Positions 16,001 to 60,900 of a stretch of DNA of 64,000 nucleotides are shown here, piece by piece. Each line of letters opens with the position of its first letter. The first letter of the stretch is position 1. The position numbers and the translations under genes were made by a program. Under the pieces are notes generated by a model. That model worked only from the letters and a program-made list of their open reading frames with translations. It was not told the DNA's origin and searched no databases. Origin of the DNA: Echinococcus granulosus (lineage: Eukaryota > Platyhelminthes > Cestoda > Cyclophyllidea > Taeniidae); assembly GCF_000524195.1 (NCBI RefSeq), contig NW_020170494.1, positions 14,977-78,976 of the forward strand. Direction: 5' to 3'.

Positions 16001-16542
16001 CAGCGACGAGATGTCGAGAGCGGAGGAGACGGTGCGCTCGTAGTGATAGGGGTTGACGCACACCCAGTCAAGCTTCTTGTCAAACCCGAAGTGGCAAAAA
16101 GGCAGGTGACGCAGCTCCGTTTTGTGGGCATCCGACCACCGCCAGAGTCGAGCGTAAATGAGATGAGGAAAGCACTTCCGACCAGCAATCTAAAAAGCGC
16201 ATCAGAGGTGGAAAAAGATTAGTCTACCTGCATTCGACTGTCGAGGGTTCGCTGGATGGTCACGCAGCTGGTCTGTGTGGCTCCATTGCTAGTCACCGCG
16301 GCGATGAGCGCATCCAGCTCGTCCCTGCGATCCTTCAGCTTCTTAATGAGACTTTCGATAGCAAATTTGGAAAACTCCTCCGACTCGCCACCCTTCCGGT
16401 GACACATGAGGCTGTGCACGATGTTCATACAGGCGTCTGAAGAGGTCGATGTGTTTACTGCCAGATGACCGCGGGATTGAGTTATTGAGCGACTTTGAGA
16501 ATGGCTAGGTTCATGGTCTGTACCGAGAATCTTCATAACCAT
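1096..16542 (-). CDS. SMAD4: Co-SMAD transcription factor (SMAD4), 7 exons
   Basis: Common-mediator SMAD of TGF-beta/BMP signalling; it partners receptor-activated SMADs and carries them to DNA in the nucleus. Exons, in coding order: 16542-16228, 16189-15802, 13202-12565, 8095-7932, 5485-5293, 2841-2528, 1219-1096. All junctions are GT-AG with matching phase, giving 711 residues (human about 550). MH1 occupies about residues 36-175. Its zinc ligands C93, C137, C149 and H154 are visible, as is the DNA-hairpin region around R109-K110. A long Gly/Pro/Ser/Gln/Ala-rich linker (exon 3) follows. MH2 starts at PPEYWC and contains [21 protein letters not shown] and [10 protein letters not shown]. The co-SMAD-specific Ala-rich insertion is at about 580-625. 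The C-terminus lacks the SSXS motif of receptor SMADs, as expected. An in-frame TAG lies upstream of the chosen ATG. An alternative exon-2 donor at 15969 would shorten the protein to 655 residues. Confidence 0.95.
8096..12564 (-). other. SMAD4 intron 3 (4.5 kb)
   Basis: The largest intron of the SMAD4 gene, bounded by gtgggt at 12564 and cacag at 8096. It contains no recognisable exon or repeat. A 102-codon ATG-initiated plus-strand frame at 9557-9865 has no family resemblance and is not called as a gene. The other large SMAD4 introns (1220-2527, 2842-5292, 5486-7931, 13203-15801) also hold nothing I recognise, apart from GC-richer patches near 4400-4900 and 13780-14160. Confidence 0.8.
16190..16227 (-). 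other. SMAD4 intron 1, 38 bp mini-intron
   Basis: The donor gtagac at 16227 and the acceptor tttttag ending at 16190 enclose only 38 bp. The intron splits the MH1 domain between Q105 and I106. Removing it restores the conserved MH1 sequence from the CVTIQRTL motif through AGRK. Phase is 0 on both sides. Confidence 0.9.
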
Positions 16543-19478
16543 TGAGTGTGATGATAGACAAGCGGTAGTTGCCTACACATCCAAAAAATAAGCAGCAAAA
16601 TTTGGTACTCTCGAACTAATCACATTTGCGCAAATACCAGCCCAACTGATCAATGCAATAAAGTACCTTACCCACAAAAACTCATAGGCATTGCAGCAGT
16701 AAACAGAATAAATCCCTATCAACCTGTGAAAAGAGCAGAAGAGGGTTCAAAAATAGTACTGTGTGAGATAATGAATGGGATCACCAGTAAATGAATGCAG
16801 GCTAAGTAGAAGCGGCAGGCAGGAATGAATCATTCGGCTACCAATTAGCCAAAACCACCTTGAATAAGCTATTCAATATTCCCTAACAATGCGGAACCAA
16901 TGAAAATACCATAAAGAAATAAAAACGAAGGAGCTACCAGCCGCAAATAAAATCTGGAAAAGTGACAAGGGCACAAAGAGTTATGATCCATTAGTAAACG
17001 AAGTAATTAGAGCTTAGCATATCAAAGAAGCGTTGCAAAAGTTTTATTTAAAGTCTACTCACTGTACTACTGAAAAATGTGATTAGCTATCTAAATGCAC
17101 TGCATAAAGTTTTCGGTAACAAATAACTGTCCCAAGTAAGTTAGTATACCTAGTGCAGAGCAGACGCCGAAGTATCGTTTGCTCAAAATTATATTTCTAA
17201 GGCATTCAAATACAACAATTTATTAAAACACGTAAAGGAATAAAAGCAACTCACATCTAAGACCATCATCGAAAATGGCGCACTACCACACAACCAAGGG
17301 GTCTATATTCACTTATAATCCGTGGCTGTGATTTGTTAATAGGGTTGCCATCATTTTCATTATTTTTTAGGCCTCTTTTGTTACTAGAAGGGACAAATCT
17401 GGAAAAATTAAAATCACTAGGTCATTATGACTCAATATTGTAAATCCTGCTTCTGCATTATATCATCTAATGATTTGTATTTCGTTGTATACAATTGATT
17501 TCTAATATCAACTGAAAGTGCCCTGATTTACCAACACCGTAACGTTTATCAAACTCAGTGTTTGGTCATGTTTAACAACCATGAAGACTTCACATTTTGT
17601 TGTAAAATATCTCATTGAATGTGCCTCTACTGACCAAATTGTACATTTACTTTGATAGCCCAGGTTTTGTATCAGCGTACGTTTTCCCTTTTGCCATGGG
17701 AACATTGTATTATACACGATTGTCATGTCTCCTTTCGTCTTTAGGGAGAGTGAGGGAAGCTACAGCTATACTAAGGGCGAATGTGTAATTTTGATGCACA
17801 GAAGAGATGGGGGCTAGTGGCTTATCCCCTGAGGCCATGCTTTAGAGCAGAATCACAGAAGTGCCTTGAGTGACTTTGGTTCCAAAACCAAGGGTTCGAC
17901 AATTAACTAAAGCATGGCATTCATAGTAATTTAAGGAGATGTGGGAGAATATGCATTACCAATGTGCGGAATATTTAATAAGCTACAAGCATGGCCCGCA
18001 GGCTATACCGCAGAGCGGAAGTACACTCCTCTGGACTTAAGTCCCCATACAGTCACACTTAGCTTTAGCACATATATAAAGGAGAAAATATATTCATTTT
18101 AAGACTTGCGTTCGTCTTAATTAGGTTTTTGAGGATTTCAAAATGGTCATTTGGCTCTTTTTTAAACGTTGATCTTCAGTACCAGCATATTTTTAGAATG
18201 TATTGTGGTGTAAATAATTCTTTCCAAAGCAATTTACTTATCCACCTAGCTTCAATATTTTTCTTGATTAGCTTAGTTCTATTCGCACGTAATAGAGAAA
18301 AAGACTTGAAGTTAGTGCAGTGATTTAAATTGACTCCCGCATGGCCTATAACTACCAGATTAGAAAACAATCGTACGGCAGGTATATGCCTTTGGAAGAG
18401 CATTGGAGAGATGCGTTGCGACTGAAATAGGGCAAGAAAATTTAACACGATTTAACATGAACTTAAAAATAAGGGCGATTGTCTTTTATTAACAGCTGGT
18501 ATTTTTGTATGTTGTTCAGAAGGATTGTAGTTCTTACTTTTCAGCAACGTTGTTTATGCCATGCTAATACATTAAGAGGAAGGGGTTCTTTATCTCGGAG
18601 ATATTGGACGTCGCTTTGTCACAGTGGTATACAGTGGTCGATTTAAAGCTCTAAGCGTGCAGGTTTTCATTTATTTCTATTTGATGGTAACTGTTTGTAG
18701 TTATTCCCCTTGGCTAATGTAATTAAACTTGGAGAGTTCCTAATAGAAATGCAAGTAAGACGTGACGGTTACGACATGGACTACTTTCTGACACTGAATT
18801 ATCTTCGTTTTAAAAAGCATGCTCCCATTTAAGAAAACAAATCATTCATGTATATTTTACCGAGAATCGGAAAACGACTTAAAAAGTGGAATCATAGGGG
18901 GTTGTACAACCGTAAAAGATCATAAATGTTTCCCTCTCATTAGTCTCTTTTCTACCAAAGATTGCATATTCGTTATGGTTTTATTTAAATATTATTACAA
19001 AATCGAAGTTGGGCCTCCAATGTGCTGTGCGACCAACACCAAATAAGTAGCCGGCGTAAGCATTAACCCCTGCCTCGGATACAGAAGCTCACTCCCTCCA
19101 CCCTATTCAAATGCCCATCATGAAGCTGTCCCTCGGGTCCTTGGGCAGATTCACTCCTCGATGATCAGCTTCGCTGTGGATAGAAAAGGTACTGCATGTC
19201 ACTTTTAGTAATTTCAGTTGGATCATTTTAGGTACCATGAATGCCCTGACACCCACGTGATTTTGACTTTGCAAAGGCATCTAACATAGCCACTAAAAAA
19301 CCTGATTTTTACCTTAAAAATAATTCATATACAAGAAAAATAAATTAAGTCTTAACAGACGGGCAAGTTTAGTGCAGAACCAGAACACAGTAACGGCCAG
19401 GTATCGCACGATTACACGTCAGAGCACATAGAAGATTGTCAAAATTTCGGTACCAAGTTCTAGCTGGTCTATCAGTGC
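16543..19478. other. Intergenic, SMAD4 upstream / forkhead downstream
   Basis: No coding exon was recognised. The left part should carry the SMAD4 promoter and any 5'UTR, and the right part the 3'UTR of the forkhead gene. A degenerate LTR-like segment at 17569-17764 is listed separately. Short open frames (17508-17726, 18129-18323, 18176-18448, 18819-19046) resemble nothing I know. Confidence 0.5.
17569..17764 (+). repeat. Degenerate solo LTR of the TRIM family (probable)
   Basis: The last ~40 bp resemble the 3' end of the TRIM LTR at 32954-33151: both share tttcgtctt-agggag and end in GCTACA. Counting back about one LTR length reaches a TG, so the segment would be 196 bp against 198 bp for the intact LTR. 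The left half is too diverged to align by eye, so the left boundary is uncertain. No matching primer site or second LTR was found nearby. Confidence 0.45.
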
Positions 19479-22400
19479 TCACATTTGCGGCGGTGGTGGT
19501 AGCAGTGGTGGCTGCGATTCGTGGTGCTGTGGTGCCCGGGGGAAGTGGGAGGTGGCAGAGGAGGTAGCGGTGGGATGCGAATGGCACTCCTTGTACTGCA
19601 ATTTCTTCTTGCGACTGCGCCCGGAACGCGGTCGAACGCGCTGTTCGTCGACAAATTTGCGGCAGCGTCGTATGGAGGAGCCATTCTCAAACATGCCAGT
19701 GGCGCCTTCGTGCAGAGTCCAGTAGGCGCCCTTGCCTGTCTCCCCGGGAGGTCGTGGTACCTTCGTGAAACAGTCGTTGAAGGAGAGGGCGTGGCGAACT
19801 GAGTTCTGCCATCTGCAACCGAGGACATACATGAGCCTCTTTCCTCCATTTCTACCGAAGAAATTCGTCGCTCTTCCCTTGATTATGATTACATCTGCCA
19901 GTCACCTCAGAAGTAGGTCCATCTTCTTCTAGGCGTGAGTGATTTTAAGGAAATGTTTTCGTGTGATTTTGTAGGACGAAAAATAAGAGGACCTTTATTT
20001 TAGATTAAAAAATAATTGATCCAAACATGTTCACGAAGCATTGACAAGTTTAAATACAGAGTAAAAGTGAATGTGCAACTTTTAATGAGTAGTCTAGCAT
20101 TTTAAGGACAACTTGGAATTAGAAAAGGGCAAGTGGTTCGTTGAAAAGGTTGACGAACTTTCATGTACATTTCCTGCAACTTCGTCAGGTTTGTTTGTGC
20201 ACGCAACTATTAATTGACCTAGCTGCGGCTACATGAGAGTAGCAAAAAGCCACCATCTAAAGGATTTCCCCTTTAAAACAAAGTGAATGGAAGCAAGATC
20301 GCTTTAAGGGTTTTAGGTGCTTTGAAATGGCAACTGAATAGCTGTATTTAGCGGAGATATTCGATTTTATTACAGCCCTTAAGTAGTTACCATCGTTGGA
20401 ATGGAATCCTTCAATCAGTGGACATTGGATAGCTTCGTTCCAGGTGAATAGTTCTTTAACATTTCGCGCTGTTGTCACTGAAAAATACATCTTTGAAAAT
20501 GGTACCACTTTTATTTACAATGCGGTTGTACAGAATCGCTTTGAAAAATCGAGATGTAGTATGGCAAAGACACTTTGGAAAAGTATTTATGCATTTTGAG
20601 ACATTTAAATCGTAAGAACATTCAAGCTGAAACTGCATAAAGTAAGGTCCGTTGCTGTTTAGACTCACAGCAATTCTTTATTCTGTTTAGTGGCTCAAAA
20701 TGAGGCTAAATGGGCTACGGTAACAATTAAGTGGTCGGTTCAAGCATACAGGAGAGCCTTACCGCTTCAACAACGCAACGCTAACTATGATGGCAGTTTT
20801 GAAGCCTATCCAAACATTCTAGCAACATAGAAATGAACATATATGCAGACAATCCGGATTGTGTTTAGGCTTTTTAAGCTCCTTAAAAATTAACATAGAT
20901 ATTGGGGTACTTTCCTCGGTAAAATGGGACTTGAAGTTCCATCTAGTTACGCATTCTGGAGTCGCTTCTATTGCAAGGCATCTAGCTATGCTGTAATAGC
21001 TCACGACATCGCCAAAATCTCAGTCCCGAAAAACCGGTGGAGAACCAAAAGTTGACTGAACAAGGTGAGGAGAACAGGAAGATGGAATAAATAGGGACTG
21101 CAATTTTCGGTACACGCAGATGATCTGATTTACTACGGATAGGGAGGTTTCCTGTCAGTCGGCTAAACGGAGCGCTGGACCTAGTGACATCACAGAGCGT
21201 GTGTATCGAGCTTGCGACGCGCACACGGGCTTAGAGTAGCATAGCTGAGGGGTGAAGGGGTGGAGGGGAAGGTAGTTTACGACTTCACTACGCACGCACG
21301 TGGAGATGGCGGTGAGGCAGGGAGGCGAGGGTGTGAGTACAGGCACTGGTGAGACCCTTTGACAAGGCGAACACAGCCTGTTCGAGCACCTGGCTGACAT
21401 GGCAGATGTAACGATTTCACGCGCTGACTTCTTATTGGGCCTACGAGTTTTATCCAATCATGTAAGAGCACTCGGCAAGGAGTAGCACAGTATTTTGGCT
21501 CAGCCAAAGCGAGCACAATGCAATCAATTAAGGGTATAATTTTTGTGGAAGACCTAACGCCGTAATAGCGATTTGTTAAAAACATATATTTAATTCACAA
21601 ATGCAGATTCCCGTAGCAGCATTTCCCATAACTTTGACGACAGAGGTATATTTAAGCGACCCAAATTGGATACAAAGGAATTTTATAACTTCTATTTCCT
21701 AAAAGCTAATTTAAAGCAAGCTAGTCACACGTCTAATTTGCCACTGTATCGGCAATAACGTACAAAATGTCTTGCAGTATCTTAAATGAAACCGAAATAT
21801 TTGAATAATGTCACTTAACTGCAATGGAATACTTTGACAAAAAAAGTCGTTTCGAACGCATACTAGTCTCAAAGGGAGATGAAGTCCAGATCCGTTAATC
21901 TATTTTTAACAGTGGAACACCTAAATTTGCTCCAAAATTTGCAAATCAAAGGTGAATTAAATGCCCGAATTAGGAATTTTGGGTTCATCTTTTGTTCTAT
22001 TCTGCATGAATCGCATGCCCAGATTCAACAAGTTAAACCTTTAAACTCTGTGTTTTGCATGTATATTTCAACGAGATTGATGTGAGCACGATGGGAAAAT
22101 TATTTTAAATCATGCAAGGGAAGTAGATCACCCATCGCGAATAACGATGTATAAACAAGACTTTGGGATGGAATAATGCCAATTATGGTAAATAAGCTAC
22201 TTTGGTAGCAAGCACATTATTTAGCAGTGGTATTGGACTGTGGTTCCGGATAGAAAGCGCGTTGAATAACCTCCCACGCCCTTGTAATTACCAACACTCT
22301 AGAAAAACGATAAACACAGTGACTCACCGCTTAGTATTCTTTCTGTAGTACGCGAAATGGTTCATAATCCAGGCGTAGATTTCACTCAGCGTAGCTCTCT

Positions 22401-23046
22401 TCTCCTTATTCGACATCATCGCGGAGACAATGAGAGTGATGTAGGAGAAGGGAGGTTTCATACTTCCATCCAACTGATACTCCACTATCTTTGGTTGTGC
22501 GAGTCCCCCACACACAATAGGCACGGGGGGCACCTCCACTGCACTTACTCCCATACTCATCCCCTCAAAGGAATTTGGATGCTGAAGCTGATTGTGCTGG
22601 TGAGAATTATGCTGCTGTTGAGGTTCCACTTGCTCATAGATCCGCTGCTGCTGTTGTTGCTCGGAGTATCGAGCATCTGCGTAGTTGTAGTCAGAATGTG
22701 GAATGTCGGTCGAAACACCACCCCAAGGAGACTGTTCCGTAGCCTGCGGCCAAATATATGCGGGAAGAGAAGATTCGTACTGAATGTAGTTGGGATAGAT
22801 GGGTGGTTGTGCATCAGGAGTCGATGTAGTGTATGGAGGGTAGTAGGGTGGTTCTCCCTCCCCCACCCCTAGACTTGTATGTTGAGGCAGAACTGGCAGA
22901 CTGGTGGCCATGGAAGCTGTGTCGTTGACGTTTCCACTGATGGCGGTGGTGGTGGTGGTAACGGCAGTGGAGGGGATTTGTTGAGCGTCCGAGAATTCGG
23001 TGTATTGAGGGAAATAGTAGTTTGAGCTCGAGGTGTGAGTAAACAT
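19479..23046 (-). CDS. Forkhead-box transcription factor, FoxA-like, 2 exons
   Basis: Nuclear DNA-binding regulator. Exon 1 is 23046-22328 and exon 2 is 19812-19479, with a phase-2 GT-AG intron of 2515 bp; the protein is 350 residues. The winged-helix domain spans about residues 197-293: [10 protein letters not shown], then [33 protein letters not shown], and MFENGSS followed by IRRCRKF. LSEIYxWIM and HxLSFNDCF favour FoxA, but the wing is divergent and the subfamily is not certain. The N-terminal half is rich in Tyr, Pro, Thr and Gln, with runs of five and three Gln, as in transactivation regions. The C-terminus after the domain is short, with a basic RSGRSRKKK stretch and a Pro-rich tail. 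The intron cuts the DNA-binding domain just before WQNS. An in-frame ATG at 23121 would add 25 residues, but a CCAAT box only 12 bp upstream of it favours 23046. Confidence 0.88.
19813..22327 (-). other. Forkhead gene intron (2.5 kb)
   Basis: The donor gtgagt at 22327 and the acceptor ttgcag ending at 19813 bound the only intron of the forkhead gene. Overlapping minus-strand frames at 21155-21585 and others inside it have no family resemblance. I see no repeat or RNA gene in it. Confidence 0.8.
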
Positions 23047-23132
23047 GGTCAGAGAGAAGAGTAAACCTCTGTCACCACCCTCGAACCGAGTGTTGGAGGC
23101 CTCAAGTGTGCGCACACGCATTCTCCTCTCAG

Positions 23133-23137
23133 CCAAT
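23133..23137 (-). promoter_or_regulatory. Inverted CCAAT box upstream of the forkhead gene
   Basis: The minus strand reads CTGATTGGCT here, an inverted CCAAT box in good context, 87 bp upstream of the ATG chosen for the forkhead gene. CCAAT boxes usually sit 60-100 bp before a transcription start. This would place the start near 23050-23070 and is the main reason for preferring the ATG at 23046. No clear TATA box is seen. Confidence 0.4.
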
Positions 23138-29899: not shown

Positions 29900-31006
29900 A
29901 TGGTATGGGCGTGGTTGTCATACCGCGTTGTCTTGTCACTTCTAACAATGCTTCGTTTGTTTCGTTAGTGTTTTTTAGCTTTTTGCGTCCATGTATGGGC
30001 TATACTGTTTGCGATGTTGTGTCTAAACCACGTTTTTTCTGTCTGTAGGGTCTCGTAAAAGTTACGAAGAATAAAGCGTATTTCAAGCGTTTCCAGGTCA
30101 AGTTTCGTAGGCGCCGTGAGGGCAAGACTGATTATTACGCCCGAAAACGTCTTATTTGGCAGGACAAAAACAAGTATAATACACCTAAGTACAGGTTTGT
30201 TGTCCGATTCACGAACAAGGATATTGTGTGTCAGGTAACTTCTGATATCATTTTAATTCTTAAAGATAATATATGCCTGTATGGATGGCGATCGTGTTGT
30301 GGCTACCGCTTATTCTCATGAGTTGCCTCGCTACGGTGTGAAAATCGGTCTTACTAACTATTCCGCCGCTTATTGTACGGGTCTTCTCCTGGCCCGCCGC
30401 GTTCTCAAGAAGCTGAAGTTGGATGGCTTGTATCAGGGTCAGACTGAGGTTAATGGCGAAAATTATCTTGTTGAGTCCAAAGAGAAACGGGGAGCGTTTA
30501 AGTGTTTCTTAGATGTTGGCCTTCGTCGTACTTCCTCCGGCGCGAACATTTTCGGAGCCCTCAAGGTAACAGCTTTTTTTTTATATACGTTATAGGGAGC
30601 CGTTGATGGCGGTTTGAACATACCCCACAGCTCGAAACGATTTCCAGGAAATGATCCCGAATCCGGAGAGTATAATGCAGAGGCTCACCGTGCTCGTATA
30701 TTCGGTCAGCACATTGCCGAATACATGCGTTCATTAAAGGAAGAAAGTGAGGAGGCCTACAGACGCCAGTTTGGTGCTTATTTGAAGCTCGGCATTGAGG
30801 CGGATGACATAGAACCCATGTACCAGAAAGCTCACGCTGCCATTCGTGAAGATCCTTCGTACACGAAGAAGGAGAGGGCCGAAGTGAAGCATCGGCGTTT
30901 TAATAGAAAGAAGTTGACCCTTAAGGCGCGTCGCGAACGCGTACGCCAAAAGAAAGCGCAATTCCTATCTCAACTTCAGAAGGATTTGGCTGTTGTTGGG
31001 GCTTAA
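29900..31006 (+). CDS. RPL5: 60S ribosomal protein L5 (uL18), 4 exons
   Basis: Large-subunit protein that binds 5S rRNA and is part of the central protuberance. Exons: 29900-29902 (ATG only), 30049-30234, 30266-30565, 30596-31006; 299 residues (human 297). The start region [19 protein letters not shown], then [50 protein letters not shown] and KRFPG follow the family almost residue by residue. The basic C-terminus carries the expected Lys/Arg-rich helix. Introns 2 and 3 are only 31 and 30 bp. The start exon is inferred from ATG immediately followed by GTATGG at 29903, matching the intron after the initiator Met in human RPL5. Trans-splicing of a leader ending in AUG onto the acceptor at 30048 would yield the same protein. 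Confidence 0.96.
30235..30265 (+). other. RPL5 mini-intron of 31 bp
   Basis: The donor gtaact follows the codons for IVCQ, and the acceptor ends in aaag before IIYACMDGD. Phase is 0 on both sides. Removing it reproduces the conserved uL18 sequence without a gap. Confidence 0.93.
30566..30595 (+). other. RPL5 mini-intron of 30 bp
   Basis: The donor gtaaca and the acceptor ttatag enclose 30 bp, including a run of nine T. The flanking codons join to FGALK-GAVDGG, as in all uL18 proteins, with phase 0. Confidence 0.95.
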
Positions 31007-32061
31007 AGTATATTGATATTAAGCTAGGAAACCATTTTTTCTCAGAAACAATCTGTTTGCAGTTCATTCCGCTTTAGGGGTGGGGGGTGGCAGCTTTCGA
31101 GTATCTTGCTGTGACGACTTAATCCTGGTGAGGTGTTCCTCCTCATTGTGAACGTTCTTCCCTTGGGAATTCGTCATGTGGTGGGTTCTGCCGTGATGTC
31201 GCACACGGTTTTGCGAGGTTTTGCCGTGAGTTCTCGTATAAACTAGTGCGTTGGTTCGAAGCCGCTCCAGGGAGTGATTGTGCGGTTTTTGAGATTTTTA
31301 GATGAGCTATTTTGTCAACTTGTGGTTTCTTTCGCAATCATTAAGTCTGTTTTTCTGGAGTTGCTGATCGGACTTCAGGTGTGGAGGGGGTGGAGCACCT
31401 TGCAATGCGTGGGATGCTAGAGGCGGTGTGGGAAGGTAGTAATGCTACGGGATTACGCATGGTTGGGTGCTCATGCAGTTAGGTTTTTTGTGGTGGGCTT
31501 TATGCCTGTGCTCGGTGTTTACACAGAGTGGAGTTTGTTTGATAAACGGCAAGATCATCCCGGAGTTCACAGGTGATCAGGGGGTTGCTCTTTGCCTCAT
31601 CCGTTTTGCGGGGAATGCGGCAACGTGGCGGTACGATTCCGCATGTTCTTAGTGGACTGCGAGATGAATAAGCAATTGGGATGTGCAATATCCTCTCAAA
31701 ATGGATCGGGGATGTTAAAGCTGAGTAGCTGAGAGTGGCTTTGTGGAGGTGCCCGATCCAGGGTGCAGCCACTTTAGTGAGGATGGGGATGATGCGTAAG
31801 CTCCTGTTCATTTCACAGCCTTTATGCTTTTTTGAAGTAGAGGTATAAAAGTTTACTCCATCACACAAAGCCTTGGCCTGACTTTATGACAGCAAGTAGT
31901 TTCTGTTAAACTTAGTCTAGGTTATCATAAACCTGAATGAGGTTCTTTAGTTTCATTTTCTCGTGGGAAATGGTTACTAATAAAGTGCCAATAAGCGGCA
32001 TGTCGTAGGTCGTTTTTGCAAAGGTCACCAGATACTTGTGAACTCTCGACTTGCCGGGAAA
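31007..32061. other. RPL5 downstream region, no gene seen
   Basis: RPL5 3' flank with a G-rich patch near 31075-31095. No poly(A) signal of the AATAAA type was placed. The open frames at 31143-31337, 31467-31652 and 31500-31868 have no recognised motif. The region ends at the older TRIM element. Confidence 0.5.
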
Positions 32062-32953
32062 TGTACCACTTTGATAGATTTTTCAATTCGACGTTTGGCT
32101 GCACGGGTACTTTGGTATTTCCAGATTGTACATCCGCTAGGTGAGCTGACCTTCGGGCTATGCTAGCAGTCTCTTGACCCCCCTATACGTTAGTGGTATT
32201 TACTGCCATAATGCTGTGGCTTTCTGCGACTTTAGGGGACGCCTACAGCGTTACATTGATAGTAACGTCAAGCGAACCTTATGCCCCTAACAGAGGGGCA
32301 AGAATTAACGTCTGCTTTTGGCGTTTTCCCTAATTCCGTATTCTGCAAGAATGCTATTATCGACTGAAGCTTCATCAGTCTCAACTTATTTTGAAAAGTT
32401 AACTACAGAGCCGTCTGCGGTACCTGCATAAACACGACAAAAGAGTACGCAAGCATTCCCTCTTCCACGTCTTCACAAACTGAGTGGAATTCAGGCAGGT
32501 GTGTGGATGGACAGCACTGAAATGAAAATAAAGTAACAAGGGGAAATAGACGTGAAACCTTATATTCGGAAGACTATTCCGTCCAGTCGGTTATTGAGTG
32601 GCCACCAGTGCCCTTACGACGCGGAGTATCCTCGTATTCGATCATTATTCGGTCTTTAGAAGTAAAAAGGTATCTCATTACCCTTTTATCAATACAATTC
32701 TTAAAGAGGACAAAAATTCAGACGCTATAAATTCGTGGTGATCCATCAGTGAAGCTGAGTCTAAAAGCATCCACAAAGGTATGCAAATTCGGTGGTTCGC
32801 AGGTAGTTTTTTAATATAGCAAACTACATTTTGGTAAGTAGCATGAAAGACTGACCAGTAGGAATGTTGGGAACAACGCTCAAAAAAAAGGAGAGGGTCA
32901 TCTAATTTTTTTGTGGTCTGGTTAATTCCGGCAATTAAAGGTGCCCAGATTAC

Positions 32954-33151
32954 TGTAATACGATAGTGGTTTATCCTTCGGTTCTGGTGAGGCGCCACTT
33001 TTGTACTTCGAACTAGCCCCCTTGTACCTCGCTGGGTGGGCTGGCCTTTTGGGCCATGCCAATTGCCCAGACACCTTCTCCATGCTAAATATATATATTT
33101 TGCGCGAGTATTGTGTCTTCTTTCGTCTTCAGGGAGTCTCGGGACGCTACA
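32954..33151 (+). repeat. 5' LTR of the younger TRIM
   Basis: 198 bp, TG...CA bounded, matching the copy at 33745-33942 in length and sequence. The Met-initiated frames that begin near the middle of both LTRs encode similar short peptides only because the DNA is repeated. Confidence 0.92.
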
Positions 33152-33155
33152 TTCG

Positions 33156-33174
33156 TGGCAGCAGAAAGCGAACC
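33156..33174 (+). other. Probable tRNA primer-binding site of the TRIM
   Basis: TGGCAGCAGAAAGCGAACC starts 4 bp after the 5' LTR. Its reverse complement begins GGTTCG and ends in CCA, which is what a tRNA T-arm plus acceptor 3' end looks like. The older copy keeps AAGCGAACC at the equivalent position, about 32270-32278. The tRNA species was not determined. Confidence 0.7.
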
Positions 33175-33726
33175 CGATCTTAAAGGCCGTGTATCCTGAT
33201 TTTCCACTTCTGTTTGATAAGCCTTAGTGGAGCGGAAGAAGTACATATGCTACGAATGGGAGAATGGTGATGACCCCAAACAGAAGGGTTGATGTTGACG
33301 TCTACCTTCGGCATCTCTCCCAGTCCCGTGTTCTGCAGAAAAGCTATTAACAACTGAAGCTACACTAGCCGTGAAACATCTGGAAGTTTCGTTACGGATT
33401 TTCCCTACCGTCCCCATGGACCTGTTTCAAATCTTGCACTTCCTTACTCAAATCCGCCTTTAGGCCAGTGTTCCTGCATCTACCTGTGGACAAGCATTAT
33501 AGCCGGCGTAGTTCCCCGTCCTGAATCAAATCCCTAAATCGGACGAAACCCTAGATCCAGTCAAGCCGCCAAGAGGGATCAGCGACGTTGAGGTCAAGTA
33601 TCCCCTCAGTTGCGCATTAATTTGGTGACTGGCACGGTCGGCTCGTGGGTGTTTCTTTACTGCACCGACTACGTTGTAATGGCTGACACGGGGGGTTGAC
33701 CTGCGGGAGCGCCGGGGACGACGCTC

Positions 33727-33741
33727 AAAAGAGGAGGGAGG
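33727..33741 (+). other. Polypurine tract of the TRIM
   Basis: AAAAGAGGAGGGAGG lies 3 bp before the 3' LTR, the standard position for plus-strand priming in LTR elements. The older copy has the equivalent purine run at 32882-32898 in the same local context (acgctcaaaa precedes both). Confidence 0.85.
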
Positions 33742-33744
33742 CTA

Positions 33745-33942
33745 TGTAATACGATAGTGGTTTATCCCTTGGTTCTGGTGAGGCGCCACTTTTGTACTTT
33801 GAATTAGCCCCCTTGTACCTCGCTGGGTGGGCTGGTTTTTTGGGCCATGCCAATAGCCCAGACACCTTCTCCGTGCTAAACGTATGTATTCTGCGCGAGT
33901 ATTGTGTCTTCTTTCGTCTTCAGGGAGTCTCGGGACGCTACA
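33745..33942 (+). repeat. 3' LTR of the younger TRIM
   Basis: Second 198-bp copy of the LTR. It is followed directly by TTAC, the same four bases that precede the 5' LTR. Confidence 0.92.
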
Positions 33943-34587
33943 TTACACTACCACTGAGTGATTTAACCCCTGGTCCCTATCGGTATCCGATCAGCACTCC
34001 CCTGGTTAGTGGTATATTTTCTGTCACACTATCTTGGCTTCCTACGACTTCAGAGAGGACTCAAGGTGCTACAATAGTTCTCCAAGACAGTCAAGAGGAT
34101 TCAGCGACCCATTCAAGGCTGATGGACCATTGATGACCAATTAGAGCTACTGTTGTAATCAAACCACTACGTGTTATCATCCTTAAATCAATCATAGTAG
34201 AAGAGTAGCTGGAAATGCGCCATAAAACCGATCAGGGTACCAACATGGCGGCAAAATGGTGAAGTTGTCACAAGTTTGTAGTATTTTATCGTAGTAAGCT
34301 CTGTTGTATTAACAAAAAATTTCGACAGTAGGGACTACCTAACTTTTACCAAGAAGAATACTCGTTTGCCGATTCTGTAGCAGATTGCAAGAAAGGCCCT
34401 GCATAATCCTAACTCCTCCAACATATCCAAAATTTCAAGACATGAGCAAAAGTAAAATTAATTTTTTTAAAATTAATATTTCGTGAGACACAGCAAAAGT
34501 TGAAGCAAATGAATATTAAATGTTTTATTTCGTTTCAATGCGGCAGCATACTCGTACCTCACGGCGATTAGTGCGCACTTTTTCGAA

Positions 34588-51800: not shown

Positions 51801-54800
51801 GAAGCTTATTCCATCCATCTATAAATGATCTCAAAGCATTCCTCTCCACTGTTAATCAAAATGATTGGGTGAGACACCAGTATCTACAAAAAATCGTTAG
51901 CTGGTGGCTATGACCCCTTACTATCTTGACAGGCAACGGCAACTGCTTTTGTTGATTTGCATTTGACACCGTTCGGGTCCACGTAGTGTTTGCACTGGTC
52001 AAGACTGGTCTCGTTGCCAAAGCAATGTCCAATAATGGCCACATGCTTCATTGCAGGAAAGACATCACTCACCAAAGGGATCTGGAAGAGAGCATTTACA
52101 AGTGCTTCAATACTGAGAGGCGTATGCGCACCGAGAACGTGTATAGCATATAAGAACGCTAAATAAAACATGCGAAAGGCACACAAAAGAAAAAAGTGGA
52201 ATCAGAACATAATTAAGAGATTTTTCTTGAAGTATGATCTTTGTCACTTCAGGATACTTATTCTAGGCATTTGCCAAAATAATCAGTTCCTTGTTTTCAC
52301 AACTTACTATTACTTTTTTCTGCATTGAATGAAGAATTTATTTTATACATCTTCCTTTATATTCGAACGCCTCCCTCTTTTACAATAGATAAGCTGAGCA
52401 CAGCGAAAAAACAGACATATGGAGGGTATAAACTAGACTAGGGTTGAAGATTATACATGAGATAAAATTCAAGCTTGGTAAAATGTCAAATGTGGGATTG
52501 GTAGAGATCATAACAAGGACATAGCCAGGGCTGGCACTGAAGGTTCCAGTGAAATCAGTCTCAGTAAAAAACTGACCAAGCTCTAAATTGAGAGCCCTAA
52601 GAGATTGAATGCTTAGATCGAATCTGTCGAAATTGTTTTCGAAACCACAATGCAATTTTCATTTTACAAAAAAAATAATTGACAGAAGCGATAAACTTAG
52701 CGTTTCTGTTATCCACAGTAAAAGTTAGGACTCTAACTTTGTAAAGGGCCGACCTTACAACTTACTATCCCGTGGTTAGAGAAACAGTGCATTTTACAGA
52801 CCAGCACCCAGAGTTTTAAATTGGGTTAAATCTACAGAATGAAAGTAGAAACAGTGTTTTACTTCTTCCTAAACTGTATATCGTCTGAGAAAAATTTAAG
52901 CGAGTCTTATAATGCAGTCAACATATATTGGTTGCTTACATTCTTAAAGCAAATGGCAAATGTCGTTTAGTCTACTGGCAAGGCATCTAACTTGATAGCG
53001 AAAATGCTGCTTGGAAAACCAAACAATGTCGTGTTCATTAAAATCTTTCTGATGACACCGATTAGGCGAAGGCTCTCGTTCGACATATCAAAAAGTCTTT
53101 GAAGCCCTTAAGAGAAAATGCAGCGGTTTATTGCGGTGCCAAAGCAATCCCAGAGCTTAGATGTTTTCAGTCATGCCACTACCTGAAAAATTTGATCGAT
53201 AAAATCAGATATAATTTCCCCATTGTCAAGGCAGCGGCAGCTTTATTAAATAAATCTAAACTTTTCTTGCGGTGATCGTCAAAATTAGACTGTTTTGGAC
53301 CTAATTTGATAAATTTGTCACCATAACTAGCTTTCCAGTTCTATCAGGAATAATTTCCACCTTTATCAGCTTGGTATGACGAATTTAGAAAGCATGTCTT
53401 TGATAATTTGCCGTTGGGATCGGTACCTGAATGACCAGTAGGCCATGGTAGGAGTTTTTACAGTAATGACGAAAACAGGTTCATTGGCAAAGGTTATAAC
53501 AAAACGCGGACGCTTCGGAATGGTCTAATAAATATCCGTAAATTCTGCTGACCCGAAGCATCTGGCTAATACTTGACCAAGAGGCAGATGGCTGAGGTTA
53601 TTACCGTCAGCAATATGCCGCTACTTTTGGTTTATCTGTCAGACTGCTTATTAATTTCAAGAACTAGTTCAGTTAATGTACCTCAAAGCAACTCGTGTGT
53701 CTACCATCCTCTCGTCTAATGTCACTTCAAGTTCGCCGGCCTACGATTGCGTCTCTTGTGTCATAGCAAATTAAAGCAGAAGTCAAAAGCCACATTTAGA
53801 CCGCTTTTTGAGCAGTTTGTTGACTACGATTTGAGTGCCGCGACAATATATTGCATAGAAATGAGCTATCATGTGCTCAACAATTTTTACGGCTTCAGAA
53901 TTTGTAAAATGATGCGTAAATTAAAATATTATAGACCGCATAAGGTTTCAAATCCATCAAAGAAGTTGTACTTATTTTATGACCATAATTCAAGGTCTCG
54001 CAGTTAAATAAAACCTAATTTTAGATCTGTCCGAGATATAAATGCAGCTTATGGTTTACCACCAGAACCTTTTAATACTGCAAAAATGTCTTGTATAGTT
54101 CTTATTTTGAGCAAAATAATTCTTTGCAATATTACTGGAGGAAGGCCTGAATTACCGTGGAGGGTGAGATGGAATCCTACCTCAACAGGGTGCGACTGTG
54201 ATAAACACCAACAGATTTACTATTTATTCTTGATTACCTACAATTACAGTGGCCCCGGAAAATAAGACCAAACAGACTCGCCTCTGCAATGCGTCCACCG
54301 ATACCAGAGTTAGTTTGTTTGCAAGCGACGATTGCGTCCATTGTGGTGAAGTCGTCTGGACAGAGGGCTCCAGCCTCGCCGTCTTTCGGTTGAATGATGA
54401 GAATCTGCGCGTCATCCACTGCTTGCGTGGTGTTTAGTTCCTTCACCTGGTATAAACCACTCGTGCCTCTGTTCTTTAGCCTGAATGAAACCTACAACAA
54501 GTTGCCGCTTTGAGCTGGATGGCATTGACTTTCCATTTTTTTATTATATAAATAATACCATCCAATTCCCCGTTATTAGGTAATCTAAGAATGCGGATAC
54601 AACATCCCGGGAAAGTCCGAGAACTGCATTTCAAGCTATTGTCTTCCCTAATATAATGCAGCGCTTAATGTAATGTAATCACGCAATTACTTAAATTCAA
54701 ACAAAAATATGCCTAAAGAATAGGGGTTCCTAACAAACATAAAAAACCAACATTCAAAAGGCATAAACGGGCCTTCATAACTTCAAGCTGTACACCTGCT

Positions 54801-57800
54801 GTTCAAATATCCATCTTGATAACTTTCCATAATTACTGACATGTCTCAACAACAAAAAATAAATCTACTTCGCATCACCTGTGGTTTACTGATGGTGTAT
54901 TAAGGGGCAAAACATTATGCAAATGTGGACCAACCTGCACTTGAATGCGTTTGAGGGGTAATAATTTGATTTTACTAAGCACCCTAAAGTGTGTTATGCA
55001 AATCGGTTCAAAATCAGAATTCGCCAAAGTTCGTGTGTCTTCCACTGCGAAAATTGAAATTATGTTAAAAATCAAGCATGACTGTCAATCCTAGACTAAA
55101 ACGGCAAAATTCTTGTCAGTGCAATTAAGGTATTAGAAACGATAGATGAAGCTAATAAAACTAAAAGAAAATAATAATAAGAAACGGAAAATTAATAAGA
55201 CATATCTTTATTGGTTAATAACTGCATTTAGTTTAAATTTATAAGCCATCTTAATGAAAAAGGATAGGTAAGAAACCTATCACAATAATAGTTAAAGCAT
55301 CTGAAAAGGAACATTGGGAAGAAGAGGCTTCCACATCAATTGAGACAGCTTTTTCTATTTTAATGAATAAAACGCTGATTTTGGCGAATTTGAGTTTAAT
55401 CAAGTTGGTTGAAACCTCAAAAGTACATGAGTAGTAGAAGAACATACATCCTCACCAACCCACCTTGGCGAGCTTTTCGAGCTCCTCCCTGGTGTAGTCC
55501 AGCCGGAGGGGATTCCAAGAGATTTTGGCGCGTGGACTGGTGTCCTGTGCGCACTGCACGCCCGCGTCCTCGTGCTCCGCGCAGTCGTGACGCGCCCAGC
55601 CGTCGAATTTGCAGTCAATCAGACGTGTCTCATTCCCGAGGCACCGCACGTTGTCCATAAAGTAGTTACCTGACACATTGCAATCGCCTGTTAGTTTCTG
55701 TTTTATTTAACGTCGTAATGCTACACGGATATCCCCACGCACTTCCAACGTTTGACCCCTTCTCACAATGCATTGTCCCAAGTCTTTTGACCTCGATCGA
55801 AGGCTTCACCGTTGTAAGTCAGTGATAGCAACATTTATATTCCGTTTAGAGGCAGGGGGTGAATTAATTTGGTATTTTGAGTATTTGCTATAGCAGACAC
55901 CAAAGCCTCCCTTCCTCACTTTTGATTTAGACGTTCCTTGTGATCTGAGTGACCTCAATATTCTCAGTTGCATCCCACATAGGAAATGCTAACACTGTCT
56001 TTCTCTGTCGCTGGTTTACATAAAGTCCTATTATATGTTGACCCTTTATAATGATCCAGTCTTACGATCTGCCGTTAATCAGAAGGGGAGCCTAGAGCAT
56101 GTGACCTTTTTGTGAATGCCCACGAAGCGTCCCAGAGACCTTCCCCAAGTTGAATTCCATACCGATCTCTAGGACTTGTAATTAAAAAAGGAATTTAGTC
56201 CTATGTTAGATGAATGTATAGTCAAAAACTGTGCTTTTTCATAAACTGCTAATGGATTTCTTCAAAATGTGGGATTATATCACCAGTTTCCTGAACGAAA
56301 AGACGACTAATGTAATTTGGTGAATTAATGCATTATCAACGGACCTTAGTACTTTTGACAAATTAACAAGACAGTAATGGAAAAAACATGTAAACTTAAG
56401 GGACTGTCAATGATTTTTACATTGGCCACTGAGCATCAATAAAAGTTATGAAATTGCAGGAACATTACGGCGGCATTATATACGTACGCTTTACCGGAGT
56501 CGCTTGGATTATTAGCAGTAAAGCACCAAATTTTTAATGACTGTCTCAAAGAAGGGTGCGTGTAAATATGCTTTAGCGCAACGACAAATAGCTACTACCT
56601 TAATTTTTCGGCCACGAACAAATCTGAGTAGCTTATTGCCAGTCCCTCGAGACCAGCGGTGTATCTGGTGTTTTGTTAATACCTCCGGGTCGAATAATTT
56701 GGAACATTGAGTAGTGGGCATAAAATAACCCATTTTAATTGCTTTTTGAAAGATCTTTTGCAAAAAACAATAATTGGAGTGCATTGAGCTTATTTTGAAA
56801 AGGTGATTTATGTTTAAGAACTTGATATTTTACAGCACTTAACCAAAAAAGAACTGATTCCAAGTTGTACCATACATTATTATCAAAAAACTTTCATTAA
56901 TTTATAAAGGATATAAACTAAGGACAGAAAAAAGCACTTTTTGTAAATTTGGACCCAGAGGCCTCATGATTTGACAGCTGCATTCTTGACCTGCGTCACA
57001 TTACCCCCTATGGTTTTAGTATCCTGATACTCAAATGGAAAGCTACCCAATGCCATAATTTTAAAATACTAAAGAGTCACCCTAAAGAACATTAAATTTT
57101 GAATATGTCCTCTGGAATAATCAGTATGAACACTCCCGCTTCGTTCATGCCCAATGCCTGAATCACTAAATGTTCAGTTTGTCTACATGCCTTTCAACGA
57201 AAAGAAAGCATGTCTTAAGAGTAGTGAGTCCTAGCGCTGAAAAGATAGTCACTCGAAATATAGGGTGATCACTCCCTTTCAATTCTTGCATGGAGACCTA
57301 TTAAATCTTCACCTGCAGCAGGATTATGGCGTAAAAAGATCAGAGTTTGCACAATGCCTGATATATATAATTGAATTAAATATCTAGCCCCTTATATATG
57401 ACCACCAATCAAAAAGGTGTGATCATATTTACAATTTCTTTTTTTTACTACGTTGTCATCTAGATTATTTTGCAGCCATTATTCATTGACTTGAGTCAGT
57501 ATTGCTGCGCCACTTCATACCTAAACCCTAGAAAGCTTTTCAGTGAAATCTGAAAGGTATGCATCATTACCTAAAACCGTCAAGAAAGGGAAGCCGAGAA
57601 GGGGGAAGAGAGACAAGGAGCATTAGCTGGTACTTACGTCCACTAACAGAATGAAATTTGTTGCGCTTGAGAGCACGCACAGCAAAGCCTAGTCCGAGTT
57701 GGCGGCAGACCACGTTTGCCTCACGGATGGACCAGTTATCGTCGCAGACGCGGCCCCACGCGTAGCCGCGATACACCGCCACTGTACCTGAGGCAAAGTT

Positions 57801-57914
57801 GTCTCCGTCCAGGAGTTTCAGATCGCCATCCACCGGCTTCTTGATCGCGCCCGCCGACACATCTACTAAGGTTGTCGCCGACAGCAGCAACAGTAGTGAC
57901 AGGATAGCGTTCAT
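48861..57914 (-). CDS. Secreted lysyl oxidase-like enzyme, two SRCR domains plus LOX domain, 9 exons
   Basis: Copper amine oxidase that oxidises lysines of collagen-type matrix proteins for cross-linking. Exons: 57914-57638, 55669-55464, 54446-54305, 52104-51922, 51490-51350, 51019-50899, 49989-49820, 49488-49394, 48995-48861; 489 residues. A signal peptide covers residues 1 to about 20. SRCR1 has Cys 57, 70, 102, 112, 122, 132; SRCR2 has Cys 190, 203, 236, 246, 257, 267. The LOX domain starts near LPDLTSD (271). Copper ligands H356, H358 and H360 lie in WHPCHAHYHSM. The LTQ cofactor pair is K383 ([10 protein letters not shown]) and Y423 ([12 protein letters not shown]). Ten Cys in the LOX domain match the family. 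It corresponds to a LOXL with two SRCR domains; LOXL2-4 of vertebrates have four. The exon 4 acceptor (52105) has a poor pyrimidine tract; a better-looking one at 52082 breaks the frame. Confidence 0.94.
52105..54304 (-). other. LOXL intron 3 (2.2 kb)
   Basis: Donor gtatcg at 54304, acceptor before 52104. An unbroken plus-strand frame of 69 codons without a Met (53066-53275) and another at 53747-54007 occur inside it. Neither is recognisable, so no gene is called. The other LOXL introns (55670-57637, 54447-55463, 51491-51921, 49990-50898) also hold nothing identified. Confidence 0.7.
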
Positions 57915-57955
57915 TGTATCAGTTAACCAGTGCCTACCACTTCGAGGTCGGCGCC

Positions 57956-57962
57956 TTTTATA
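57956..57962 (-). promoter_or_regulatory. TATA box of the LOXL gene
   Basis: The minus strand reads CTATAAAAGGCGCC, a near-ideal TATA box, 42 bp upstream of the ATG. With the usual ~30-bp spacing the transcript would start near 57930, leaving a 5'UTR of about 15 nt. A trans-spliced leader could also replace that short 5' end. Confidence 0.75.
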
Positions 57963-60900
57963 GCGCTTTCTGCCTATGCTAATTGATAGTCCGAGGTGGT
58001 GATTATTATTCTGCTGAATGGTGTGGCAATATAATCTTATTCTACTATTTTGGCATTAATCCAGCGGTTCAAAATGTACAGAGGGTGAATGTGCAGACAA
58101 CAAGCTACTGGATTTGGCTTCAAAAGGGCCAATTCACATTTCTAAATTACTTGATTCAATTTGATTAAATGTGAATAATCGTACCCGGAGCATTAAAACA
58201 AAAAATAAAAGAACTTGTTCATCCTTTAAGGAATAAGCTAATTGCGAAGTAAAACAAGTTGGCGATGGTGCGATCAGCTACCCAATTAAAATTGAATTTC
58301 TTGAGGCAGTTGGGATTGAAGGTACGAAATTACCACCGATCTCTAGTCTAATTACAAATGAGCACACCTAGGGATGCTTGATACAATTTAGACTTATGCA
58401 ATTAAAGTGAGGGAGGTCGCAATTTTTAAGTTAATTCTAGTCAAGTGTTCGGTTAAGCTCTTCCAGCGCGCTTTGAGTTTAGTGGCCTACATTATGCAAA
58501 CACATCACCAGTCGGATTTGCATATTGCAGTTGTGCCGATGATCGTATAAGTTTATATAAATTGATGATATAATGCGTCCTTTGTAAATAAGCCCTGAAG
58601 ACATATGATTTGGATTCTTTCGAGCAATACAGGCAACGCCTACCAGTTCATTGTGTTAATCATTATTTTTGGATCAAATAGATAGCAAAAAACATTTATT
58701 TTACTTTGTGTGAGTAGATAGAGTGGATTTAAGTTTGATTGTTAAAAGGAGTAGACTTGAAGATATAGGAAGGTTTCTACCCACAACCTCACTTTGATAA
58801 AACGATATTTTCGTCCCACAAACATTGGTAGCATTTCGCAACAAATACACGAGTTTCAGCCTTACTAAACTTATGGCCAAGAAAAGGTAAGGTTACTCAC
58901 CTTTTTAAGGGGTAGAGAGTATCAGGACAAAAAACATACAGATTAAGATTGTTTTTAAACCAGTATGCGTACGCCAAAACAAAATTCGACATTTGATTCA
59001 TTAATTCCTCCCAGTACGCCATGTGCCACCTCAAGTAAATGTGATCGGAAACGTCCTGATAAAATACAGAGTGTGAACCGGTCCCTTAACCACCGTTCCA
59101 CATCCTTTTGACCAATTTCATTTTCATGCATTTGTAATTGGTAATTTAAAAAGTTTCTTCTATAATCCCTTCTCTGCGCATCTAAACAATCCTAGGCAGT
59201 GGTAGATCACTTATTTGGAACACCTATTTGCGGGTTTGATACATCCGTCAATGGTAAAATTTTCAAAGCAAAAGTTTTTTGGAAATTCGGATTAGTAATC
59301 GCTTGAAACTGTGATGCTTGTAGGTCTCTCTGCTGGTGACGTACCAATTTCACTTGATTCTGAGAACTTTACTAACGAACCTTGTACCAAGTACAACAGT
59401 TACAGTGGAGCAGACTGGCTAATGATATGGGTAAGATGAAAATACAAATAAATATGTCGATATAATACTTTACTCGAATTTATAGGGGTCTGAAAAGTGA
59501 ACGTGATTGTCTGTATGCATTGCGAAACACAGATATGTGTCTACCTACCAGTACTTCCCATCATCTTTCTTGCTACTTTTCTCTTATTCTGGGGCCTCGC
59601 ATTATAAATTCCCGCATTGGTCTTGGTTTCAAATACGCAGAAACTTGTCAGCAAAATATTGCGGCATCTGAAAAATGTGCAGCAGCAGAACGGGCTACCA
59701 CGTAATGGTTTACGTGGTGTAATTCTAGCAACAGATCCCTTAAGGATGGATTCAACACCTTTAGAACAACTCTCAATTTATGCACTGATTTGAGATTATA
59801 GTATTAGGAACTTAGCCTTTGGTGATGCTTAGCGTAGACGATGAAGATATGGGTATATTCCCAAATCAAATAGGAAGGGAAAATCCTAAAAGCATGCATG
59901 AACAGACAAAAGCGCCTCCAAAATCTATCTAGCAATTCTTTCAAGCACTAAAAGGGGTAATTTTGTTCATCCCCCTTTCTTAAGATTATACATTTGCATA
60001 CGAAACAAAAGCTGGGATGGAAATTTAGGCGAGTAGATGTTGTACTTTCAGGAAAAAAGGCACTGCCGAACCAAATCCCGTTTTCAAGAGTTATGAATGG
60101 TAGTGGCGATCATTTACAAGCGATAAGACTATTTTAAGAATCCTTCCAGGATTAAATAATTTTTAATATAAAAACCCACTTGAATTGACTTAGTCCTTTT
60201 TAATATGACCAATTTCCCTTAGTCACTTTGAAAAATATCGACTCACACAATCGTAAATACATTAAGTCCACCAGCACACAGCTGTCACCCGATAACTTAC
60301 TCTAACATGAAACGTGTGACATTCGCCATCCTCTCAGCACGCCTGCTTTTGATGAGCCACTCGTCTCTCAAATGCCCAGGCAAGGCATGAGAAGTTTGCA
60401 AAGAATAAGAAGCACAAATTTAGCTACATTGAACTGTTGGGGTATTTTGATTGCCTTGATCTCCATTATCATGCCGTGGAACTTCATAGCCTACACAAAT
60501 TTGAAGAACTTGGCATGGGAGATTACTTTGATTTCTTTCGTTGAAGTAGTGCACACTGTGTTCCACTTCCCCATGTAGCTTCCTCGACAACCAAACGGTG
60601 TAATCCCGCACTCTGAAATTAGCACAACATCTTGCTTTCTCATTTAAACATTCCAAAAATTTGAGGTGTTTAAATGCAGTTAATTTTTTGACCTCAAATG
60701 TTATTTATGGTATCGTCGGTTGTACAGAGCTATCTGCATTTTGAACGCATCATTTTAATTTCTATACAATCCACGTGACCAGCGCAAGAGACAAGTACAC
60801 CATTTTCAAACTATATTTGAGTATTTACAGTTGGCTTAAACTAATGATGCGGTTGGACGATCCGAGGGAACAGATTCCAGCATTCAAATAATTCATGCTA

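Follow-up and report, generated by a model that had tools for sequence, protein, structure and literature searches.

The window analysed here, a 64,000-nucleotide stretch of the Echinococcus granulosus genome, contains exons of the ribosomal protein gene RPL5 on the forward strand (30049-31003; Pfam Ribosomal_L5e and Ribosomal_L18_c), which end ~1.06 kb upstream of a repetitive element lying on the same strand. Exons with Pfam matches to MH1, forkhead and SRCR domains were found on the reverse strand at 16222-16572, 22327-23136, 51911-52201 and 57570-58055, the SRCR match at 51911-52201 falling below the curated cut-off. ARAGORN detected no tRNA gene in the whole window, and no Rfam family reached the gathering threshold there. 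A preliminary description had placed two nested, non-coding terminal-repeat retrotransposons in miniature (TRIMs) at 32062-34073. The features now assigned to this interval are collected in Table 1. As had been stated, neither copy appears to code for protein: Pfam found no family in the 2 open reading frames touching the elements. An Rfam search of 32040-34100 returned nothing up to an E-value of 1.

Table 1. Features of the two nested elements, in order along the window.
Feature	Position	Strand	Remarks
Outer ta-TRIM, two segments	32062-32953 and 33947-34073	+	Decayed; element parts in the same order as in the inner copy
Outer 5' LTR	32062..32255	+	194 bp, TG...CA; z 8.0 against the young 3' LTR
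Outer internal region	32256..32900	+	645 bp; lacks ~85 bp near 32282
Outer primer site, decayed, TAGTAACGT	32260..32268	+	4 bp past the LTR; 5/9 bases of TGGCAGCGG kept
~150-bp segment of old copies	32413..32563	+	In 7/7 aligned old copies, in 0/5 scorable younger copies
Outer polypurine tract	32882..32897	+	3 bp before the 3' LTR; well kept
Outer 3' LTR, left part	32901..32953	+	53 bp, assigned by position, not by sequence
Target site duplication of inner element, left	32950..32953	+	TTAC, 4 bp
Inner ta-TRIM, whole	32954-33942	+	~1 kb, non-coding
Inner 5' LTR	32954..33151	+	198 bp, TG...CA; AATATA present
Inner spacer and primer-binding-site-like sequence	33152-33164	+	TTCG + TGGCAGCAG
Inner internal region	33152..33744	+	593 bp, non-coding; without the ~150-bp segment seen in old copies
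Inner primer binding site	33156..33164	+	TGGCAGCAG; 4 bp (TTCG) past the 5' LTR
Inner polypurine tract	33727..33741	+	15 nt; ends 3 bp before the 3' LTR
Inner 3' LTR	33745..33942	+	198 bp, TG...CA; AATATA lost
Target site duplication of inner element, right	33943..33946	+	TTAC, 4 bp
Outer 3' LTR, right part	33947..34073	+	127 bp, homologous; ends CA

The anatomy originally proposed for the inner copy was confirmed: the paired TG/CA long terminal repeats (LTRs), the TTAC flanks, a primer site in the expected position and the purine tract are all present. TRIMs of the ta-TRIM family are known from taeniid tapeworms (Koziol et al. 2015, PMC4558846), and the inner element matches this published family, from which it is one primer-site base apart; the suggestion that the nest belongs to a taeniid TRIM family stands. 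The Echinococcus ta-TRIM described in PMC4558846 shares with the inner copy 198-bp LTRs with the same ends, a primer site 4 bp past the LTR, a purine tract of 15 nt that stops 3 bp short of the 3' LTR and an internal region of ~590 bp, and with the copies examined here 4-bp duplications, the U5 sequence and many solo LTRs. The published U5 primer TGTGTCTTCTTTCGTNTTCAGGGAG (PMC4558846) is found in both inner LTRs. This match and the 4-bp duplications point to the genus Echinococcus; of the other primers in that E. multilocularis study, one for a gene matches with 1 mismatch and the locus-8 LTR primer has no exact match, which makes the E. multilocularis reference an improbable source. The Taenia ta-TRIM has a similar general plan, with ~50% identity to Echinococcus copies reported; target duplications are given as 5 bp in Taenia and mainly 4 bp in E. 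multilocularis (PMC4558846), and those found here are mostly 4 bp.

We searched the genome from which the window was taken (103.6 Mb, 272 contigs). A 32-mer from U5, allowing up to 3 mismatches, occurred at 718 places (346 forward, 372 reverse), and the reversed pattern, used as a control on the same genome, at 0; as had been expected, the genome does contain further copies bearing these LTR ends. The LTR search, in which 40 of 1506 candidates were scored, gave 40 places matched over the full or near-full length at 94-100%, with 7 more matches beside 5 of them; the internal-region search, with 40 of 818 candidates scored, gave 40 matches at 91-100%. Neither viral contigs nor the prokaryote genome collection contained an exact match to the published U5 primer pattern. 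For closer study, 6-kb loci were collected around exact U5 matches, taking 40 of 95 merged places in contig order; the set comprises 39 distinct loci, since L016 and L017 are duplicates, and it is biased to young copies because it was chosen by exact U5 match. Six of these loci hold full-length copies (L010, L016, L021, L034, L039 and L046, with LTR-pair divergences of 3.0, 6.6, 5.6, 6.1, 6.1 and 6.6%, respectively), three retain a single LTR together with part of the internal region (L012, L015 and L024), and the remainder are mostly solo LTRs. Short target duplications, which the preliminary description had advised looking for, recur at other insertions: besides the inner copy, 27 of the 39 distinct loci have a 4- or 5-bp duplication (25/39 a perfect 4 bp, 2/39 5 bp), the other 12/39 having none or 3 bp.

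Several individual loci were also noted. The full copy with the 3.0% LTR divergence occupies positions 2241-3034 of L010. L016 and L017 (G000:C128:71260-77260 and 142060-148060) show the same ta-TRIM, accompanied at equal offsets by the same neighbouring relic, 70.8 kb apart, and therefore this contig holds either a segmental duplication or an assembly duplicate. At L055 (G000:C266:1390500-1391800), three head-to-tail LTRs lie within 550 bp (362-904), the middle one broken at position 141, and there is in addition an inverted LTR at 1076-1269; the array could have arisen by nesting or from LTRs in tandem. At L054 (G000:C245:658800-659900; 364-742), a young LTR has inserted immediately next to the end of an older one and is flanked on each side by CTAA. 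Within the window itself, a further decayed LTR fragment lies at 17706-17764 (+), matching the U5 end of the inner LTR at 76%.

Comparison with these copies shows where the inner element has changed. Its primer site differs by one base from TGGCAGCGG, which 7 of 8 other copies carry, while the eighth, L016, differs at another base. The hexamer AATATA is found in 33 of 42 listed LTRs (a tally that omits the 5' LTR of L016 and the LTRs of L020, L030, L031 and L036), so the inner 3' LTR, which lacks it, is the changed one, and we rejected the idea that it preserves the ancestral state. With an altered primer site and a 3' LTR without AATATA, the inner copy is likely to be unable to move now.

In PMC4558846, the ta-TRIM primer site is reported to be complementary to a Leu tRNA. 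The inner primer site has the published position, and the search for a matching tRNA gene gave only tRNA-like leads, none of them confirmed by ARAGORN on 4 fetched stretches or by Rfam on 3 of the 4. In other copies, the primer site is directly preceded by TGG, the complement of the tRNA CCA end, and L057 contains a tRNA-like sequence ending CCGCTGACA. A primer site longer than the published one, as the TGG and the L057 sequence might imply, is not claimed, because neither program confirmed a tRNA gene.

The young ta-TRIM was likely copied through RNA and integrated by enzymes of another retrotransposon. Going by the published biology of the family, the 5' LTR would drive transcription, a tRNA at the primer site would start reverse transcription, synthesis of the second strand would begin from the purine tract, and the cDNA would be joined to a 4-bp staggered cut by an integrase acting in trans. 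Transcription of ta-TRIMs from the LTR in germinative cells has been published (PMC4558846), as has a candidate autonomous partner, lennie, which codes for Pol and is reported to have the first 8 LTR bases of ta-TRIM, its primer tRNA and its usual 4-bp duplication length (PMC4558846). The genome searched here contains 26 reverse-transcriptase-like matches, none of them on the contig of the window.

The sequence surrounding the inner element was assessed by global alignment against dinucleotide shuffles. The outer 5' and 3' LTRs aligned with the young 3' LTR at z = 8.0 and z = 5.1, respectively, and the outer with the inner internal region at z = 5.8, the two internal regions being ~45% different. 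The outer segments are accordingly homologous to the family of the inner copy, as had been proposed, and the outer internal region has a segment in common with six other old copies. The outer 5' LTR retains TG...CA ends and the 3' LTR reads TC...CA; ~85 bp following the primer site (near 32282), present in the other nine aligned copies, are missing. The outer copy has no visible target duplication (GAAA before, ATAG after); duplications so old may be erased, and the copy is accordingly filed by homology as a decayed relative rather than as an intact member of the family. When the outer 5' LTR was used as the query, the genome search recovered no place other than its own (1 candidate). Being both split and decayed (in its primer site, in the TC start of its 3' LTR and by the insertion), the outer copy is likely to be immobile now.

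The insertion point was originally placed inside the older 3' LTR, and this position stands, with the qualification that part of this LTR is assigned by position rather than by sequence. The outer 3' LTR starts at 32901, is broken at 32953 and picks up again at 33947-34073, the 127 bp on the right being homologous. Taken alone, the 53 bp on the left, out of 180, score no better than letter shuffles (p = 0.36 when compared with the outer 5' LTR and 0.67 with the young LTR), and they were placed from the 3-bp distance to the purine tract and from a 54-nt alignment with the outer 5' LTR that continues across the junction and its TTAC (p = 0.0035, letter shuffles). The unrecognisable left part could also mean that the outer pieces are two unrelated ta-TRIM remnants, or a recombination chimera, which flank the young copy by chance. 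Such an origin would account for the absence of a duplication around the outer copy and for the distance between its LTRs, which in a MAFFT alignment are p 0.44 apart, nearly as far as from the inner LTRs (0.46-0.47). However, LTR, primer site, internal region, purine tract and LTR follow one another in the right order, orientation and spacing, the outer internal region can be aligned over its length with six further old copies, and the alignment with the outer 5' LTR carries on across the junction; we regard this explanation as unlikely.

Unequal crossing-over between tandem copies, which PMC4558846 proposes for clustered ta-TRIMs, is a different route to the same arrangement. Tandem clusters are reported in that paper, and close direct LTR pairs occur elsewhere in our set (L022 and L026). 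Against it, the LTR ends of the inner copy are complete and the 4-bp duplication around them is perfect, and the two internal regions differ by the ~45% noted above, compared with highly similar tandem copies in PMC4558846; we consider crossing-over extremely improbable here. The reading we adopt, and hold to be very probable, is that a young ta-TRIM (32954-33942) inserted into the probable 3' LTR of an older ta-TRIM of a longer type (32062-32953 and 33947-34073).

The order of events is given by the interruption itself: the old 3' LTR is broken, and the inner copy is complete, between two perfectly matching TTAC flanks. Both LTR pairs were aligned, as the preliminary description had advised. 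The inner pair shows 12 differences (11 transitions, 1 transversion), or 6.1% (p = 0.061, K2P 0.064), which equals the published E. multilocularis minimum; the 3.0% of L010 is below the published range of 6.1-22.9% (PMC4558846). At the intron rate of 7.1e-9 per site per year given in PMC4558846, the inner copy is ~4-5 million years old (about 4.5). Divergence of the outer pair varied with gap costs from 0.27 to 0.44 over all 8 alignment settings: in 4/8 settings, which gave 0.35-0.44, it was at least 2 SD below shuffled pairs, and in the other 4/8, which gave 0.27-0.39, it did not clear shuffled pairs by 2 SD. The age of the outer copy is therefore loose, and nothing finer than "several times older than the inner" was kept. 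From this LTR divergence we infer that the outer insertion took place several times earlier than the inner one. It may, with a wide margin, predate the split of E. multilocularis and T. solium, because the informative range of outer divergence exceeds the 30.3% intron divergence between these species (PMC4558846). At least two separate rounds of insertion at this site are supported, which is the part of the earlier claim of "at least two bursts" that stands; two discrete bursts do not follow, because copies of intermediate divergence exist, with LTRs at 75-89% to the inner LTR.

The outer internal region matched 20 other places at 66-88% (all 21 candidates were scored, one being itself), and under relaxed scoring 17 of the 39 loci contained other family sequence besides the focal copy; the same scan on reversed sequence gave 0 hits. 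We aligned the outer copy with the six other old copies having long internal matches (L019, L020, L031, L037, L040 and L043). All seven contain 133-151 bases at 32413-32563, the segment that the younger copies lack. In the three young copies of this alignment, the corresponding place holds 10 bases in the inner copy, 11 in L034 and 0 in L010, the last of which is not a witness because its deletion is wider; in L039, L046 and L053 the alignment passes this place with no added length. Absence of the segment is thus seen in 5/5 scorable younger copies (inner, L034, L039, L046 and L053). Three young copies, L010, L016 and L021, were left unscored for internal deletions at or bordering the segment (internal lengths 396, 396 and 485), L010 still being kept in the alignment. 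The internal region of L046 measures 693 bp; an insertion there was rejected, as the surplus consists of 100 N, a gap or withheld stretch. Of the old relics, those in L003, L009, L016 and L036 stop short of spanning the segment, those in L026 and L029, outside the alignment, match it, and those in L011 and L032 do so marginally only (E 0.006). Since L053, an intermediate copy (81%), is already without the segment, its loss predates L053.

Internal distances among the old copies averaged p 0.455 (21 pairs), a value that depends on the alignment, and those between the old copies and the inner copy and L034 p 0.394. Old LTR matches in L019 (387-488), L026 (1453-1571), L031 (3312-3403) and L039 (3220-3322) start at position 70-97 of the young LTR and miss U3; the old promoter region may have been different or may simply have decayed. 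A selected core of ~60 bp in the old copies (32501-32563, 78-88% identity) was considered and dropped, as its conservation was not above permutation (p 0.38, sliding, 7 aligned). Nor do we claim that old relics are enriched near young copies: 18 were counted in 222 kb of flanks versus 2 in 84 kb (binomial p 0.058), the latter being made up of the 64-kb window, chosen for having one, and 20 kb of arbitrary genome with 0 relics.

The finding new to this analysis is that the outer copy belongs to an older generation of ta-TRIMs. A description of an archaic, longer ta-TRIM type was not found in the literature searched, including PMC5327563, PMC10850878 and the text of PMC4558846 (without its figures and supplements). 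Full-length ta-TRIM copies are reported in PMC4558846 to diverge pairwise by up to >60%, and given this value its authors may have had old copies in their set.

The nest also raises the possibility that ta-TRIMs prefer inserting into older ta-TRIMs, so that the arrangement reflects a targeting rule. Three nests were seen, and a second LTR match lay close to 5 of the 40 scored copies in the LTR search. The first nest is that of the window. The second, L037, at a locus not chosen for nesting, is a young solo LTR with a TGAT duplication inside an old copy, whose alignment runs in register through the junction. In the third, L053, a young solo LTR flanked by a CAAT duplication has landed in the 3' LTR belonging to the 81% copy. 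However, L053 was fetched because it looked nested, the window was likewise selected for nesting, and the LTR search may favour two-LTR regions because its candidates were ranked in a first look. Among the 39 distinct loci, 1 clear nest (L037) and 1 possible nest (L039, on one side only) were seen, against 1.42 expected from old-relic coverage of the flanks (3.6%) or 1.56 when all other family sequence (4.0%) is counted. In a stricter junction test, 7/45 sites had a family hit within 150 bp, which in 3 cases was part of the same element, versus 48/900 control windows, and junction-spanning hits occurred at 0/45 versus 18/900; this test also counts against targeting, yet it is too strict, having missed the nests in the window and in L037. 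As nesting is no commoner than relic coverage predicts, self-targeting is not supported, and we consider it very unlikely; observed and expected nests agree, so the nest needs no targeting rule.

The ta-TRIM family is already known, and the nest is mainly a clear example of it. What it adds is an order in time: an old, longer generation lies beneath a young one, the two parted by the ~150-bp internal segment. We tentatively put forward, with slightly less than even confidence, a wider proposal, in which taeniid genomes would hold a largely unrecognised archaic layer of ta-TRIMs, ~150 bp longer than the modern ones and at ~55-70% identity, inserted before the split of Echinococcus and Taenia. 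The modern, stem-cell-expressed ta-TRIMs would then derive from it by loss of the segment, this nest would cut through both layers, and the outer copy would still lie beside RPL5 in Taenia. The RPL5 exons are a useful anchor for locating orthologs, and a shared insertion beside them would offer a concrete test of when ta-TRIMs arose in taeniids. The results further suggest that searches tuned to young copies may undercount ta-TRIMs in genomes that are said to be poor in mobile elements.
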